This document shows positions 33,026-37,289 of a stretch of DNA of 64,000 nucleotides, in pieces; position 1 is the stretch's first letter, and every line of letters starts with the position of its first letter. Below the pieces are notes generated by a model. That model did not search any database and was not told the DNA's origin. It saw nothing but the letters and a program-made list of their open reading frames with translations. Source of the DNA: Thermococcus eurythermalis (lineage in GTDB: Archaea; Methanobacteriota_B; Thermococci; Thermococcales; Thermococcaceae). Position numbers and translations under genes: made by a program. The stretch lies in the NCBI RefSeq assembly GCF_000769655.1, contig NZ_CP008887.1, positions 248,001 through 312,000 of the forward strand. The letters run 5' to 3'.

Positions 33026-33073
33026 TCTACCACCTAAGAAGATGTCGGGATAGATATTATAAAGGGTTTGGCT

Positions 33074-33091
33074 GTTGCACGACTATGCAAC
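33074..33091. promoter_or_regulatory. Perfect inverted repeat upstream of the FAD oxidoreductase promoter
   Basis: GTTGCA-cgacta-TGCAAC has 6-base arms separated by 6 bases. On the minus strand it lies about 10 bases upstream of the TATA box of the FAD oxidoreductase gene, a place typical of archaeal activator sites. It could also serve the divergent peptide cluster. The binding protein is unknown. Confidence 0.45.
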
Positions 33092-33194
33092 TCTTTTACT
33101 CTGGCTTCTTTTGGTCCGTTCTAATAGGAAAACTCAGGTTCGAATAAGCTCATACTCTAAAAAAAGAAAGAACCTATACCTAAAGTAAAAGGAA

Positions 33195-33249
33195 AGATTT
33201 ATAAGTGGAAGTTGGTTAAAATATAATGCAAAAACTTTAGGAGGTGATG
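33195..33249 (+). promoter_or_regulatory. Promoter and ribosome site of the peptide cluster
   Basis: GATTTATAAGT (about 33196-33206) with purine-rich BRE GGAAA is a strong TATA region. AGGAGGTGAT (33239-33248) fits the archaeal anti-Shine-Dalgarno exactly and lies 3 bases before ATG 33252. Strong initiation suits a small abundant product. Confidence 0.7.
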
Positions 33250-33251
33250 AC

Positions 33252-33356
33252 ATGGAAGAGTTGATTGTACTGGAAAAAGGTGCATTCGGGTTCAACGAGC
33301 CAAACTTTTTCATCTGCGGGAGCTTCTGTAATCCTGTAAAGGATAACCCGAACTGA
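33252..33356 (+). CDS. putative 34-aa RiPP precursor peptide
   Basis: An ATG with a near-perfect ribosome site opens a 34-codon frame. The N-terminal part MEELIVLEKGAFGFNEPN looks like a leader, and the C-terminal part FFICGSFCNPVKDNPN holds two cysteines four apart (CGSFC, Cys22 and Cys26). It stands directly before a radical SAM protein and an ABC exporter, the usual layout for sactipeptide or ranthipeptide genes. It belongs to no family I recognise. The frame is too short to prove by length alone; support comes from the ribosome site, promoter and neighbours. Confidence 0.72.
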   Translation: MEELIVLEKGAFGFNEPNFFICGSFCNPVKDNPN

Positions 33357-33391
33357 TTGTGTTTCTTTATTTTTTACTACTTATTTTATTT
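33357..33391 (+). terminator. T-rich stretch between peptide and maturase genes
   Basis: This segment contains TTTCTTTATTTTTT and later TTATTTTATTT. As archaeal termination needs only oligo-T, part of the transcripts may stop here. This would give more peptide mRNA than maturase mRNA. A faint TATA (ACTATAAAAAT, about 33397-33407) follows but is too close to the next start to be a convincing promoter. Confidence 0.4.
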
Positions 33392-33421
33392 CAGATACTA
33401 TAAAAATTAGGAGGTGTGAAT

Positions 33422-34078
33422 ATGGAAATGAACGGGATCAAACTTTCAAGATATACTCTCGCTGTTCCATATCAGGGACGTGTGATACTATTTAATACCC
33501 TTTCACGCTCTTTAGTTGCCATTTCAGAAGAAGTTTGGAACAGACTTAAAAATAGTATCAACAATGCCAACGTTGGTATTGATAATGGAACGCTTAATGA
33601 TCAGCTAATTAAAGAACTAACAGCTTTAGGATTTTTGATACCCTCTGAATTAGATGAAAAAGAGCTGATGCGAACCCATGTGAATATTCTAAAATATACG
33701 CCAACACACATGGGAATGTTTGTGAACTTAACCTCAAGATGTAATCTCTCTTGCCCTTATTGTTACCAAGATTTAAGAAAAGCTCTAGATAATAATCAAG
33801 ATTTAACAACTGATGGCTGGAATAGAATAATGAAATTAATAAACAAGCGGACAAACATTCTGAGAAATGTTAATGTTGTATTCTTCGGAGGAGAACCAAT
33901 GTTGAATTATGATACTCTAAAAGTGGCAGTAAGAGATTTAGATTCTTTAAGGGAAATTGGCATTAAAGCATCAAAATCCAAAATTTCCTGTAATATAGAA
34001 CACCTACAGAATTACAGCGAATTTCTAACACTTTATGTTAAGTCAAGATACAAAAAACTCCTGGAGGGTGAACAATGA
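33422..34078 (+). CDS. short radical SAM peptide maturase-like protein (SPASM part missing)
   Basis: The 218-aa protein starts at ATG 33422 five bases after AGGAGGTG. Residues 1-95 resemble the N-terminal peptide-recognition region of radical SAM maturases (LSRYTLAVPYQGRVILFNTL). The radical SAM motif CNLSCPYC is intact (Cys107, Cys111, Cys114) and GGEP is at 156-159. Shortly after, at residue about 190, the sequence passes into a short tail ending in YVKSRYKKLLEGEQ. The second half of the TIM barrel and all C-terminal SPASM cysteines of a normal 400-450 residue enzyme are absent. No frameshifted remainder is found before the next gene, whose ATG overlaps this stop (ATGA). It is either a deletion derivative or a genuinely short enzyme. 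The DNA is strongly AT-rich. Confidence 0.75.
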   Translation: MEMNGIKLSRYTLAVPYQGRVILFNTLSRSLVAISEEVWNRLKNSINNANVGIDNGTLNDQLIKELTALGFLIPSELDEKELMRTHVNILKYTPTHMGMFVNLTSRCNLSCPYCYQDLRKALDNNQDLTTDGWNRIMKLINKRTNILRNVNVVFFGGEPMLNYDTLKVAVRDLDSLREIGIKASKSKISCNIEHLQNYSEFLTLYVKSRYKKLLEGEQ

Positions 34079-34983
34079 ACGTGATAGAGATTAACGACCT
34101 CACCAAGGTCTATCCCGACGGAACAAAGGCCAACGACCGAATTTCAATCAAAGTTAGAAAGAACGAGATTGTAGGCCTCATCGGGCCCAACGGTGCGGGA
34201 AAGACAACACTAATACGTCAGCTGTTGGGGCTTTTGAAACCCACCGAAGGTTCCATTCGAGTCGTGGGCGAAGACATAGCTGAGAATCCAGACGTCATAA
34301 AAAGAACGCTCGCCTACGTGCCCCAGTACCCCCTGAGCTTTCCATCCCTGCGGGTTGAGGAAGTTCTTGAATACGTTTTCAGGATGAGGCACGGGAACGC
34401 TCCACGGAAGGAAATGGAGAAAAAGATCTCGGAAGTTCTGAGCCTTGTTGGGCTCGACGGGGCATCAAAGTTCTTCGGGTATCAGCTGTCTGGTGGCATG
34501 AAGAAGTCCCTCCTGCTCGCGATGGCACTCGTCCAGGAGCTTCCCGTCCTTGTGCTCGACGAGCCGACGAGTATGGTGGATATCGTTACAAAACATCGTC
34601 TCTGGGAGGTCATAAGAAACTCAAACCGCGATGGAATTCTTCTCGCCAGCCACGACATGAATGAAGTCAAAGCCCTGTGCGATAGGGTGTACCTTCTCGT
34701 CCACGGAAAGATAGTAACCTCCGGCACTCCCGCCGACATAGTTTCAATGATTAAAATGCCCACTGAGGTTCGTTTAATACCCCAAAGGGAGATACCCGCA
34801 AGCATCCTTCCCAAGGAGCACAAAAAACGCGGAGACCTCTACGAGATGGCATTTGATACGCTTGAGAAAGCTCTGGAGACCGTTGAGACTATCACCAAGA
34901 GCGTCGGTGTGTCTTATCTCGAACTCGAGTCTCCCTCCTTTGAAAACCTCGTTATAAATCTCATTGGGAGGGATAGAGAATGA
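34075..34983 (+). CDS. ABC transporter ATP-binding protein, peptide-cluster exporter
   Basis: The 302-aa ATPase has Walker A GPNGAGKTT (residues about 37-45), signature LSGGMKKS (about 139-146), Walker B VLVLDEPTS and the H-loop ASHD. The C-terminal 80 residues are an accessory domain typical of DrrA/NatA-like exporters. Its start overlaps the maturase stop and its stop overlaps the permease start, so translation of all three is coupled. Likely function is exporting the processed peptide or giving immunity (inference). Confidence 0.92.
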   Translation: MNVIEINDLTKVYPDGTKANDRISIKVRKNEIVGLIGPNGAGKTTLIRQLLGLLKPTEGSIRVVGEDIAENPDVIKRTLAYVPQYPLSFPSLRVEEVLEYVFRMRHGNAPRKEMEKKISEVLSLVGLDGASKFFGYQLSGGMKKSLLLAMALVQELPVLVLDEPTSMVDIVTKHRLWEVIRNSNRDGILLASHDMNEVKALCDRVYLLVHGKIVTSGTPADIVSMIKMPTEVRLIPQREIPASILPKEHKKRGDLYEMAFDTLEKALETVETITKSVGVSYLELESPSFENLVINLIGRDRE

Positions 34984-35696
34984 TTCGGCCCCTAATCAGA
35001 ATGGAGCTAAAGGGAATGAGAATTTACAAGACTTTCCTCACAGTCAATCTCCTTATCATGCCGCTCGCCCTTCTGTTTATGATGATTATGAACTCCGGCT
35101 CAAGAACCCCCGAGGACATCTCATACCTTGTGAGCGGTTTCATCGTCGTTTCGCTGGTGAGTTCTTTCCTTGGAACGCTGACGAACAGGGTCAGCAACAT
35201 CTTTGAACCCAGCGTTCTTGAACTCTACTCGACGTTGCCACCAAAGATTTCCACAGTTGTTCTCGCACAGTTCCTAACGTACTCTCTCATGGTCATTCCT
35301 CAAGTACTAATAGGTCTCACCGTTATACTCTATTACCAAGGAGTGAGCAGGATAAACGTTCCGCTCTTAGTCCTGGCACTTTTGCTCACCTTCCTTGAAC
35401 TAGGAGCATTGGCAGTCGCAATAGGGGCAAGGATTGGAAACCCCTACAAGGCAATGGCCGTTACGGGAATACTTCCCTGGCTCTTCGTGGTGTTCTCCCC
35501 TGCCTACTACCGCTCAAGCTTTCCGGCGCTCTACCTGAATCCCGTTACGCATCTCCTCTTGTGTGTCCGCTCAGCAATTGGGCTTCAGGAGATAAGCCCA
35601 ATACCCTGGCTGGTATCCGGAGCTCTGACGGTTATTTTCACAGCCTTTGCAATCAGAAACGTTGGCTCCAGCTATATGCTTGAAAAGCCGTTTTAG
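34980..35696 (+). CDS. ABC-2 type transporter permease
   Basis: The 238-aa protein has about six membrane helices (residues about 20-38, 48-68, 90-115, 125-150, 156-175, 208-228) and resembles ABC-2 permeases. It forms a transporter with the preceding ATPase. The ATG overlaps the ATPase stop (ATGA). A T-rich terminator follows. Confidence 0.88.
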   Translation: MIRPLIRMELKGMRIYKTFLTVNLLIMPLALLFMMIMNSGSRTPEDISYLVSGFIVVSLVSSFLGTLTNRVSNIFEPSVLELYSTLPPKISTVVLAQFLTYSLMVIPQVLIGLTVILYYQGVSRINVPLLVLALLLTFLELGALAVAIGARIGNPYKAMAVTGILPWLFVVFSPAYYRSSFPALYLNPVTHLLLCVRSAIGLQEISPIPWLVSGALTVIFTAFAIRNVGSSYMLEKPF

Positions 35697-35719
35697 CCTT
35701 TTTTATCCCTCATTTTTGA
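35697..35719 (+). terminator. T-rich terminator of the peptide/ABC operon
   Basis: CCTTTTTTATCCCTCATTTTT starts right after the permease stop: two oligo-T runs without a stem, as archaeal terminators look. Confidence 0.55.
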
Positions 35720-35906
35720 TGTTTGCCCAATTGCCCAAGAAACGGAAAGCACATCCTAGGTGTCCCATGGAACTACTAGTCGCCCCGATGGATAATTAAA
35801 CTACAACAGTACTCGGAAAAAAGCAGAAATATTTACTTGAAATAGGAAGGAAACTTATAAAGATTAATTGCACATTTAACAACGGAAAACTTGTGGGGTG
35901 AAGGCA

Positions 35907-37289
35907 GTGCGGAAGAGGCTGTTTATTGGACTTCTACTAACGGCTTCACTCCTCATCGCGGTAGTTGCCACGGCCACCCCGATTGGAAAAGTCGAGGTTG
36001 ATGTCTCAACTCCTCCCGCGTTCCAGGGGGCTAAGATATACTACGCGGTATGGACATTCGCTGAAAATGGAAGTCCAATAGTAATAAAAAGAGGAGTACT
36101 CAGTGACCACTTGTTTTTCAAGGACAGCATTTACCTCTCAAAAAGTGAACTTCAGAGGATAGAAAACACGGCAAAGAAAATTGGGTCGAAAACCGCGTTC
36201 ATTGGAATAGACGTGTGGGTGGAAAAAGATGGCAAAGTGTACAGTTTGGTTGATGGATTTGACAGGTCCTTGAGCGGATGGGAGCTCGAAAAGAGCATAA
36301 AGTTCAAATTAAACCTCAAAGAGGCCTCCGTTGTTTCTATTCCATCACCCCACATAATTAGAACTTCGTCCAAAGAGATTACTCCGATGAGTCCAACGAA
36401 GCACTGGTACGAGTGGAGAACGGCTGATGAACGCTATTTTACAAACATCAAGATACCTTTACTCATAATTCACAAAAAGTCGAAAACAAAAATCAGTGCC
36501 ACAGTCCAGCTCGGAGCAAAACATGGCTCGTACATGGGGCCCGACATCACAGTCGCTTTTGGAGACCAGATTTCGAAGAAAGTCTCGTTTGATCCGAGTT
36601 CAATAAAACTGAAAGTTTTAGGAAGGTCTTTTACAGACTGGTACCGCGGTGGCAGTATTATAAACATGGAACCCAGCAACACGTGGGGGTACATATGGGT
36701 GAAGGGCACTATCCACTACATACATCAAAAGGAGTACTTCTGCTACAAGAGCGCGTATCACCCCAATCCAACATGTCTCTTTACTGGAAATGAAAGGTAC
36801 TTCGCAAAGATTGACCGCTTTGAGTATTCATCTCAACATGGATCAGTTAAAGACATAGAATCTGGAGTAAGCTTCGAGAAACCTCAATTTTACCCGGAGG
36901 ACGTTCCAATGGAATACGTAACGTTAAACGCCCCCAGGGGTAAAGACGTCTACCTTGCGGACTTCTTTGACAAAATATACACTGAAACAAAAGGATATTC
37001 CTTTGGAATAGGTGCACCCGTTGGAGCATTGATAAACTACCTTACAGGGGAAAGACTGCCCCCCTGGTTTAACTCACTGCTCGTGGGCTTCAGCGTTGAG
37101 GGATACTCCACATATGCAGTCATGGGTGAAATCCGGAACGATGGTTCAGTCAACAATGTGAAGTTCTCAGCGGCAAAATCGGCTTACAAAATCTCGATTC
37201 CAATCAACAAGCCATGGTGGGAGTTCTGGAAGTCAGACCACGTTAATACCAACGTCCCGGTCGGGTTCTACGTTGAAGTCTTCAGTTAA
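35907..37289 (+). CDS. secreted protein of unknown function next to the peptide cluster
   Basis: The product of 460 aa starts with a signal sequence (basic MRKRLF, then hydrophobic IGLLLTASLLIAVVATATP, cut probably after the ATA region). The rest is soluble and beta-rich, with many Trp, Tyr and charged residues and only two Cys (FCYKSAYHPNPTC). GTG 35907 follows GGGGTGA; GTG 35898 lies inside that site. It has its own TATA (AACTTATAAAG, about 35851-35861). Family not recognised. It could be a target or protectant linked to the peptide system, or simply a neighbour; both DNA composition and position mark it as accessory. Confidence 0.75.
   Translation: MRKRLFIGLLLTASLLIAVVATATPIGKVEVDVSTPPAFQGAKIYYAVWTFAENGSPIVIKRGVLSDHLFFKDSIYLSKSELQRIENTAKKIGSKTAFIGIDVWVEKDGKVYSLVDGFDRSLSGWELEKSIKFKLNLKEASVVSIPSPHIIRTSSKEITPMSPTKHWYEWRTADERYFTNIKIPLLIIHKKSKTKISATVQLGAKHGSYMGPDITVAFGDQISKKVSFDPSSIKLKVLGRSFTDWYRGGSIINMEPSNTWGYIWVKGTIHYIHQKEYFCYKSAYHPNPTCLFTGNERYFAKIDRFEYSSQHGSVKDIESGVSFEKPQFYPEDVPMEYVTLNAPRGKDVYLADFFDKIYTETKGYSFGIGAPVGALINYLTGERLPPWFNSLLVGFSVEGYSTYAVMGEIRNDGSVNNVKFSAAKSAYKISIPINKPWWEFWKSDHVNTNVPVGFYVEVFS

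Follow-up and report, generated by a model that had tools for sequence, protein, structure and literature searches.

The locus spans positions 33195-35719 of a 64,000-nt stretch of Thermococcus eurythermalis DNA (the window) and was compared with 94 Thermococcaceae genomes. The four ORFs named in an earlier note on this DNA, a 34-codon frame, a radical SAM ORF, an ABC ATPase and a permease, all lie where that note had placed them (Table 1). The 34-codon frame has, as claimed, a good ribosome site (AGGAGGTGATGAC-ATG) and a promoter, with the TATA box about 46 bp upstream. The second ORF carries the CNLSCPYC motif and is open at 33416-34078; judged by the ribosome site, ATG 33422 is better placed as its start than GTG 33416. 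ATPase and permease genes follow with an ATGA overlap at each junction. Regarding domain content, Pfam Radical_SAM matches the second ORF over the first half of the model only, the third ORF matches ABC_tran, and the fourth gives a sub-threshold ABC-2 permease match (25.6 bits, cut-off 31.6).

Table 1. Position of the features in the window and the observations on which each is based.
Feature	Position	Strand	Basis
Promoter cassette	33075..33207	+	Match to model R1, 109.6 bits
Recently exchanged block	33159..34172	+	100% identity to G063 except deletion; flanks 82-83%
RiPP precursor peptide MEELIVLEKGAFGFNEPNFFICGSFCNPVKDNPN	33252..33356	+	Upstream of every full-length maturase; purifying selection
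Maturase remnant, 218-220 aa, from a 447-aa radical SAM/SPASM maturase	33422..34078	+	Relatives, NCBIfam, Pfam
Deletion junction, 681 bp absent vs G063	33967..33968	+	DNA comparison with G063
ABC ATPase, DrrA-like, PF00005, intact	34075..34983	+	Pfam; purifying selection also in maturase-less genomes
ABC-2-type permease, intact	34980..35696	+	Pfam; kept in relatives
3' half-copy of promoter cassette	35805..35862	+	R1 match 16.9 bits, E 4.6e-4 in window
Secreted protein, Sec-type signal, unknown family	35907..37289	+	G059 homologue under full cassette

A conserved peptide and its maturase family

A 34-aa peptide is encoded just upstream of the maturase gene, with a spacing of about 50-80 bp and its own ribosome site each time, in all five close relatives with a full-length maturase, which belong to three genera. 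Absence of the frame from maturase-keeping relatives had been named in the earlier note as an outcome that would speak against a RiPP locus, and with the peptide present in 5/5 the reading survives this check. The window peptide consists of a leader-like part (EELIVLE..G..GF.EPNF) and a core-like CGSFCNPVK with two Cys (C-x3-C). The corresponding precursors are MEELIVLEKGAFGFNEPNFFTCGCFCSPIKGGDNPN in G054, MEELIVLERGSASFDEPNFCGVFCNPVKGGDNPN in G021, MEEVKEIVVLDRGSSGFDEPNFCGVFCNPVKD in G008 and MPERQEEVIVLEFGNPSFGEPNFVCGLCGFCGAFPLPT in G093, the last two genomes being placed in another and in a third genus by kinship data. Common to the precursors are a leader-like E..IVL..G...F.EPNF and a core-like CG-x-F-C motif, the latter varied in G093, where the core differs and contains three Cys. 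Differences between the window peptide and those of G054, G021 and G008 are mostly silent (pS 0.49-1.02, pN 0.07-0.19; for example 0.07 vs 0.49 against G054 and 0.11 vs 0.87 against G021), and pN/pS values of 0.13-0.19 indicate purifying selection. Across the Thermococcaceae, a search with the peptide gave significant matches nowhere except at full-length maturase loci. In this family a small precursor gene thus adjoins the maturase gene and is conserved with it, as expected of a radical SAM RiPP cluster, and the C-x3-C core would be the substrate of thioether cross-linking.

Full-length maturases are 442-466 aa long (open frames of 443-495 aa) and occur in few of the 94 genomes, namely G063 (447 aa), G054, G021, G008 and G093. 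They contain CxxxCxxC, GGEP and conserved C-terminal cysteines, that is, a radical SAM core together with a SPASM domain; Pfam finds the core only, and the SPASM assignment comes from NCBIfam maturases that align over nearly the full length. The best of these, NF038107 (CefB), TIGR04280 (geopeptide) and TIGR04463, likewise act beside small Cys-rich precursors, but the Thermococcaceae proteins score only 151-179 bits against them and do not reach the curated cut-offs of 400-600, for which reason we regard the full-length members as a separate, so far unnamed, subfamily of Cys-rich-peptide maturases. Among solved structures the best relative is CteB (5wgg), followed by 8vpo and, more distantly, SkfB (6efn). 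The ranthipeptide maturases CteB/SCIFF and PapB share the radical SAM/SPASM type but differ in that the proteins studied here fall below the family cut-offs and that the core in the window has two Cys. The N-terminal ~90 aa align with the corresponding part of RiPP maturases and of 8vpo, without a Pfam PqqD match; an AlphaFold model of the full-length maturase was too poor for a fold search (mean pLDDT 41.7), so that a recognition domain at this end is proposed from profile alignment. Viperin was considered as an identity for the radical SAM protein and rejected, the match being far below cut-off.

Beyond the Thermococcaceae, the matches of our scan were for the most part RlmN-like proteins and remote maturases of clostridia, with no informative precursors. 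Two side observations concern other maturase-like genes. In G046, another Thermococcus, a CefB-like maturase lies with a 70-aa Cys-rich precursor (MEFYILETGSRERVAGNF...) and a similar upstream region (L055:7150-8830), a different archaeal RiPP candidate. G113, from another family of the class, carries seven maturase-like radical SAM genes, some of them in adjacent pairs (L069, L076, L079, L080).

Deletion of 681 bp within a recently exchanged allele

The description of the radical SAM protein as a short maturase did not hold: compared with the full-length relatives, the ORF lacks 681 bp, which accounts for its size. The G063 protein matches the window protein at both ends, and at the DNA level 552 nt and 111 nt of the gene are identical to G063 while exactly 681 nt are missing between them, in frame. 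No microhomology or repeats were seen at the junction (zero shared bases). Since the gene is full length in G063, G054, G021, G008 and G093, the deletion is the derived state. About residues 185-411 of 447 are lost, comprising the second half of the barrel, where the TNGT motif and the segment after it lie, as well as the SPASM domain with C338, C357, C392, C396, C402 and C406, all six of which are invariant in our alignment (A1). The N-terminal domain, CxxxCxxC and GGEP are retained, and NCBIfam peptide maturases align with the remnant only over the first ~180 of ~440 positions. A search with the full-length protein found no second copy in the T. eurythermalis genome, which therefore lacks a complete maturase. 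The proposal of a RiPP locus is hence upheld for the family as a whole and fails for the T. eurythermalis copy.

The surroundings of the deletion point to its age. Positions 33159-34172 are 100% identical to G063 outside the deletion, while identity is 82% in the upstream oxidoreductase gene and 83% at the start of the permease; it drops at ~33060-33095, at the edge of the promoter cassette, and at ~34540, inside the ATPase gene. The donor-like allele of G063 lies on a 3.3-kb contig of a MAG that is 85% complete. A sharp-edged block of identity of this kind is what homologous replacement of the peptide-maturase cassette leaves behind when the flanks are conserved, and because of it we take the cassette to have been recently swapped in and then broken; with zero point differences in ~1 kb, both acquisition and deletion are recent. 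The view that the system is AT-rich and accessory was borne out, and it is in addition exchanged horizontally between species. The G021 maturase is a mosaic with respect to G063 (~40-76% nucleotide identity before the GGEP region, ~81-92% after it), and since the G021 peptide differs along with it, this suggests that the peptide and the recognition half of the maturase travel together.

Two explanations would leave T. eurythermalis with a working module. The cluster could be intact, with the 220-aa protein a genuinely short maturase able to modify the peptide: the reading frame is preserved across the deletion, both CxxxCxxC and GGEP survive, and the 1014 nt contain no other mutations. However, chance would leave one deletion in three in frame and the lack of further mutations shows only recency, whereas all five relatives have 442-466 aa and the missing part holds many invariant barrel residues and every conserved C-terminal cysteine except one; on comparison with these relatives we reject the short-enzyme reading, to which we give hardly any credence. 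The deletion could also be an assembly error in a strain with an intact module, as the perfect identity to G063 on both sides and the junction without microhomology might suggest. This we hold to be very improbable, the genome consisting of a 2.12-Mb contig and a 3.6-kb plasmid at 99.99% completeness and similar losses being seen in relatives. A derived, recently broken maturase gene is the reading we carry forward. As a separate observation, a 3629-bp plasmid (contig C2 of G000, L147) shares 81% identity with NC_009658, the 3.6-kb plasmid of Thermococcus nautili.

A promoter cassette shared with secreted proteins

The region upstream of the peptide gene belongs to a conserved element of 134 positions (134 bp) with a mean column identity of 80% over 15 loci. 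Its parts are a palindrome (TTGCACGACTATGCAA), a CTTTTACTCTGGCTTCTTTTG block, an operator-like TACCTAAAGTA at 33177-33187 and the TATA box at ~33199-33205. With a model built from sequence only (R1), the cassette was found in 78 of the 94 Thermococcaceae genomes in up to 13 copies each, with five copies in T. eurythermalis. Most of the inspected copies (36/43) precede secreted proteins, mostly 44-49 bp after the TATA box, three precede a RiPP precursor, and the remainder look decayed. The secreted cargo (L094-L151) has a nearly constant Sec-type signal (MRWKPLLAVLLGLLMVGVTAGSA...) followed by very different bodies, and at the site between the oxidoreductase gene and an AOR-type gene the cargo differs by species. 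A role of the palindrome as a module-specific operator was rejected, as it is part of the cassette, whose copies mostly stand before other genes. The cassette also contains a possible tiny leader ORF, MQLFYSGFF, with suggestive third-position variation, although it is short and not present in all copies.

TACTN3AGTA stands at a constant spacing ahead of the TATA box, exactly in 31 of 44 copies and with at most one mismatch in 41, where 0.16 would be expected by chance; TACCTAAAGTA is the window copy, with one mismatch. TACTN3AGTA is the published operator motif of the TrmB TM system (PMC10667668). Because it is deduced from this motif, control of the cassette by a TrmB-family regulator is our guess.

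Downstream of the permease, the half-copy of the cassette precedes an ORF whose product (~460 aa) had no Pfam, NCBIfam or PHROG match. In G059 a homologue of this ORF lies directly under the full cassette, replacing peptide and maturase. At the same locus in G025, G040 and G070 (L083, L087, L093) we noted a secreted ~285-aa protein paired with a ~560-aa protein that has a prenyltransferase-like alpha-alpha toroid domain (PF00432). Thermococcus-specific variable loci of secreted proteins were described by Makarova and co-workers, who, in the relevant passages, suggest bacteriocin-like or signalling roles (PMC4158269); these suggestions agree with the cassette cargo. Both the secreted proteins arCOG10027, arCOG10066 and arCOG10028 and the VARTIG loci resemble the loci described here as variable accessory loci with a proposed part in inter-microbial conflict, but differ in that the relevant passages on these loci describe no radical SAM peptide maturase, ABC pair or shared promoter for such a system (PMC4158269, PMC8416519). 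They may overlap with the proteins under the cassette.

The ABC transporter and the fate of the module

The ABC ATPase is intact in five further genomes without a maturase (G048, G051, G059, G072, G088), and the permease is likewise kept wherever the contig extends far enough. Among the maturase-less G048, G059 and G072, pN/pS is 0.11-0.14 for the ATPase, as low as in other pairs, and 0.12-0.22 for the permease, again as in other pairs. Loss of the maturase with retention of the transporter has thus occurred repeatedly. The lost maturase of G072 has left 56 nt of its 3' end between promoter and ATPase, a match not equalled in 1000 shuffles. The short putative remnants of G048, G059 and G088 fall on the ribosome-binding site of the ATPase and prove less alone, because they could be just that site; they do place the ends of the putative deletions ahead of the ABC translation signal.

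An ATPase and an ABC-2 permease beside a maturase recall SkfEF and EpeAB, published as transporters that confer autoimmunity in radical SAM peptide systems (PMC13343845). The earlier note had assigned the pair to export. A transporter used for export alone would be expected to degenerate once the maturase is lost, whereas an immunity pair should persist in non-producers exposed to producers; as purifying selection still acts on the pair in the maturase-less genomes compared, self-immunity is likely the better fit than export alone, with export perhaps in addition.

That the RiPP of the relatives is a signal or another non-antagonistic peptide, with the ABC pair purely its exporter, we consider unlikely. 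The gene order precursor-maturase-ABC would suit such a role, and some radical SAM peptide systems are not known to be toxic. Nevertheless, decay would then be expected in genomes lacking maturase and peptide, where the ABC genes are under purifying selection, and the promoter is common to variable secreted proteins, a locus type suspected in microbial conflict in the part of PMC4158269 that deals with it. Rather less plausible is an independent housekeeping or drug-efflux pair alongside which peptide and maturase were inserted by chance. Several genomes do have the ABC genes without a maturase, and their G+C content is higher (50.6% vs 34%); but the same ABC pair recurs directly 3' of the same maturase at unrelated places in two other genera, and close homologues, found in ~12 of the 94 genomes, are nearly always accompanied by a maturase, maturase remnants or the promoter cassette.

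We therefore favor, with a probability of roughly 0.7, the explanation that the locus is an allele of a Thermococcaceae RiPP module that was recently acquired and then broken in its maturase, with the peptide gene and the immunity transporter kept. In intact relatives, the module would be expressed from the cassette shared with the hypervariable secreted proteins; the maturase would recognise the ~34-aa precursor via its EELIVLE..G..F.EPNF leader and form thioether links from the C-x3-C core, and the leader would be removed by an unlinked protease, no leader peptidase being encoded in the locus. A role like that of SkfEF or EpeAB would fall to the DrrA-type ABC-2 transporter: protection of the producer from the product and perhaps release of the latter. 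In T. eurythermalis, the peptide-maturase cassette would have been acquired through recombination bounded by the conserved promoter on one side and the conserved ABC gene on the other, before the maturase lost 681 bp, which makes this strain most likely a non-producer; since its peptide is probably made unmodified and the ABC pair is kept, it is likely an immune one. More tentatively, and at somewhat less than even odds, all observations can be joined in one picture: the Thermococcaceae would share a promoter cassette, dedicated to this use and equipped with a TrmB-type operator, into which antagonism cargo of either kind, hypervariable secreted proteins or a radical SAM RiPP, can be plugged interchangeably. 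Cargo would pass between species through recombination in the promoter and in the partner gene downstream, and producers would repeatedly turn into immune non-producers by losing the maturase and keeping the ABC pair, the window representing one such loss soon after acquisition.

In gene order and proposed working principle the module resembles skf and epe of B. subtilis. The skfABCEFGH operon for the sactipeptide sporulation killing factor also combines a small precursor, a radical SAM/SPASM maturase, SkfB (6efn), which is a distant sequence relative of the Thermococcaceae enzymes, and an ABC ATPase and permease that give autoimmunity (PMC13343845, PMC8172795). In contrast to skf, the archaeal locus has no SkfC-like protease or SkfH, its core is C-x3-C, head-to-tail cyclisation is not indicated for its product and the maturase is broken in the window copy. 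The epeXEPAB operon for the epipeptide EPE likewise has a precursor, a radical SAM enzyme and an ABC autoimmunity pair (PMC13343845), but there the radical SAM enzyme is an epimerase accompanied by the membrane peptidase EpeP, whereas the Thermococcaceae precursor has conserved Cys and the locus encodes no protease. Our literature search found no radical SAM RiPP from Thermococcus, Pyrococcus or other Thermococcales, in line with the earlier note, which knew of no described Thermococcus product, and nothing on the promoter cassette; nor did the archaeal subfamily, the shared promoter or the series from producer to non-producer appear in the literature searched.

Peptide antagonism in hyperthermophilic archaea is, to our knowledge, little explored. 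The intact clusters of G063, G054, G021, G008 and G093 are available for expression, while the T. eurythermalis strain is the wrong choice when testing for a product; the proposed immunity function of the ABC pair is now testable, and the common promoter with its candidate operator links the RiPP to a large unexplained secretome. Two decayed copies of the module were noted besides: a second locus in G021 (L061) holds a SPASM fragment near a peptide-like start together with a frameshifted ATPase, and G005 (L060) has a truncated ATPase beside an intact permease.
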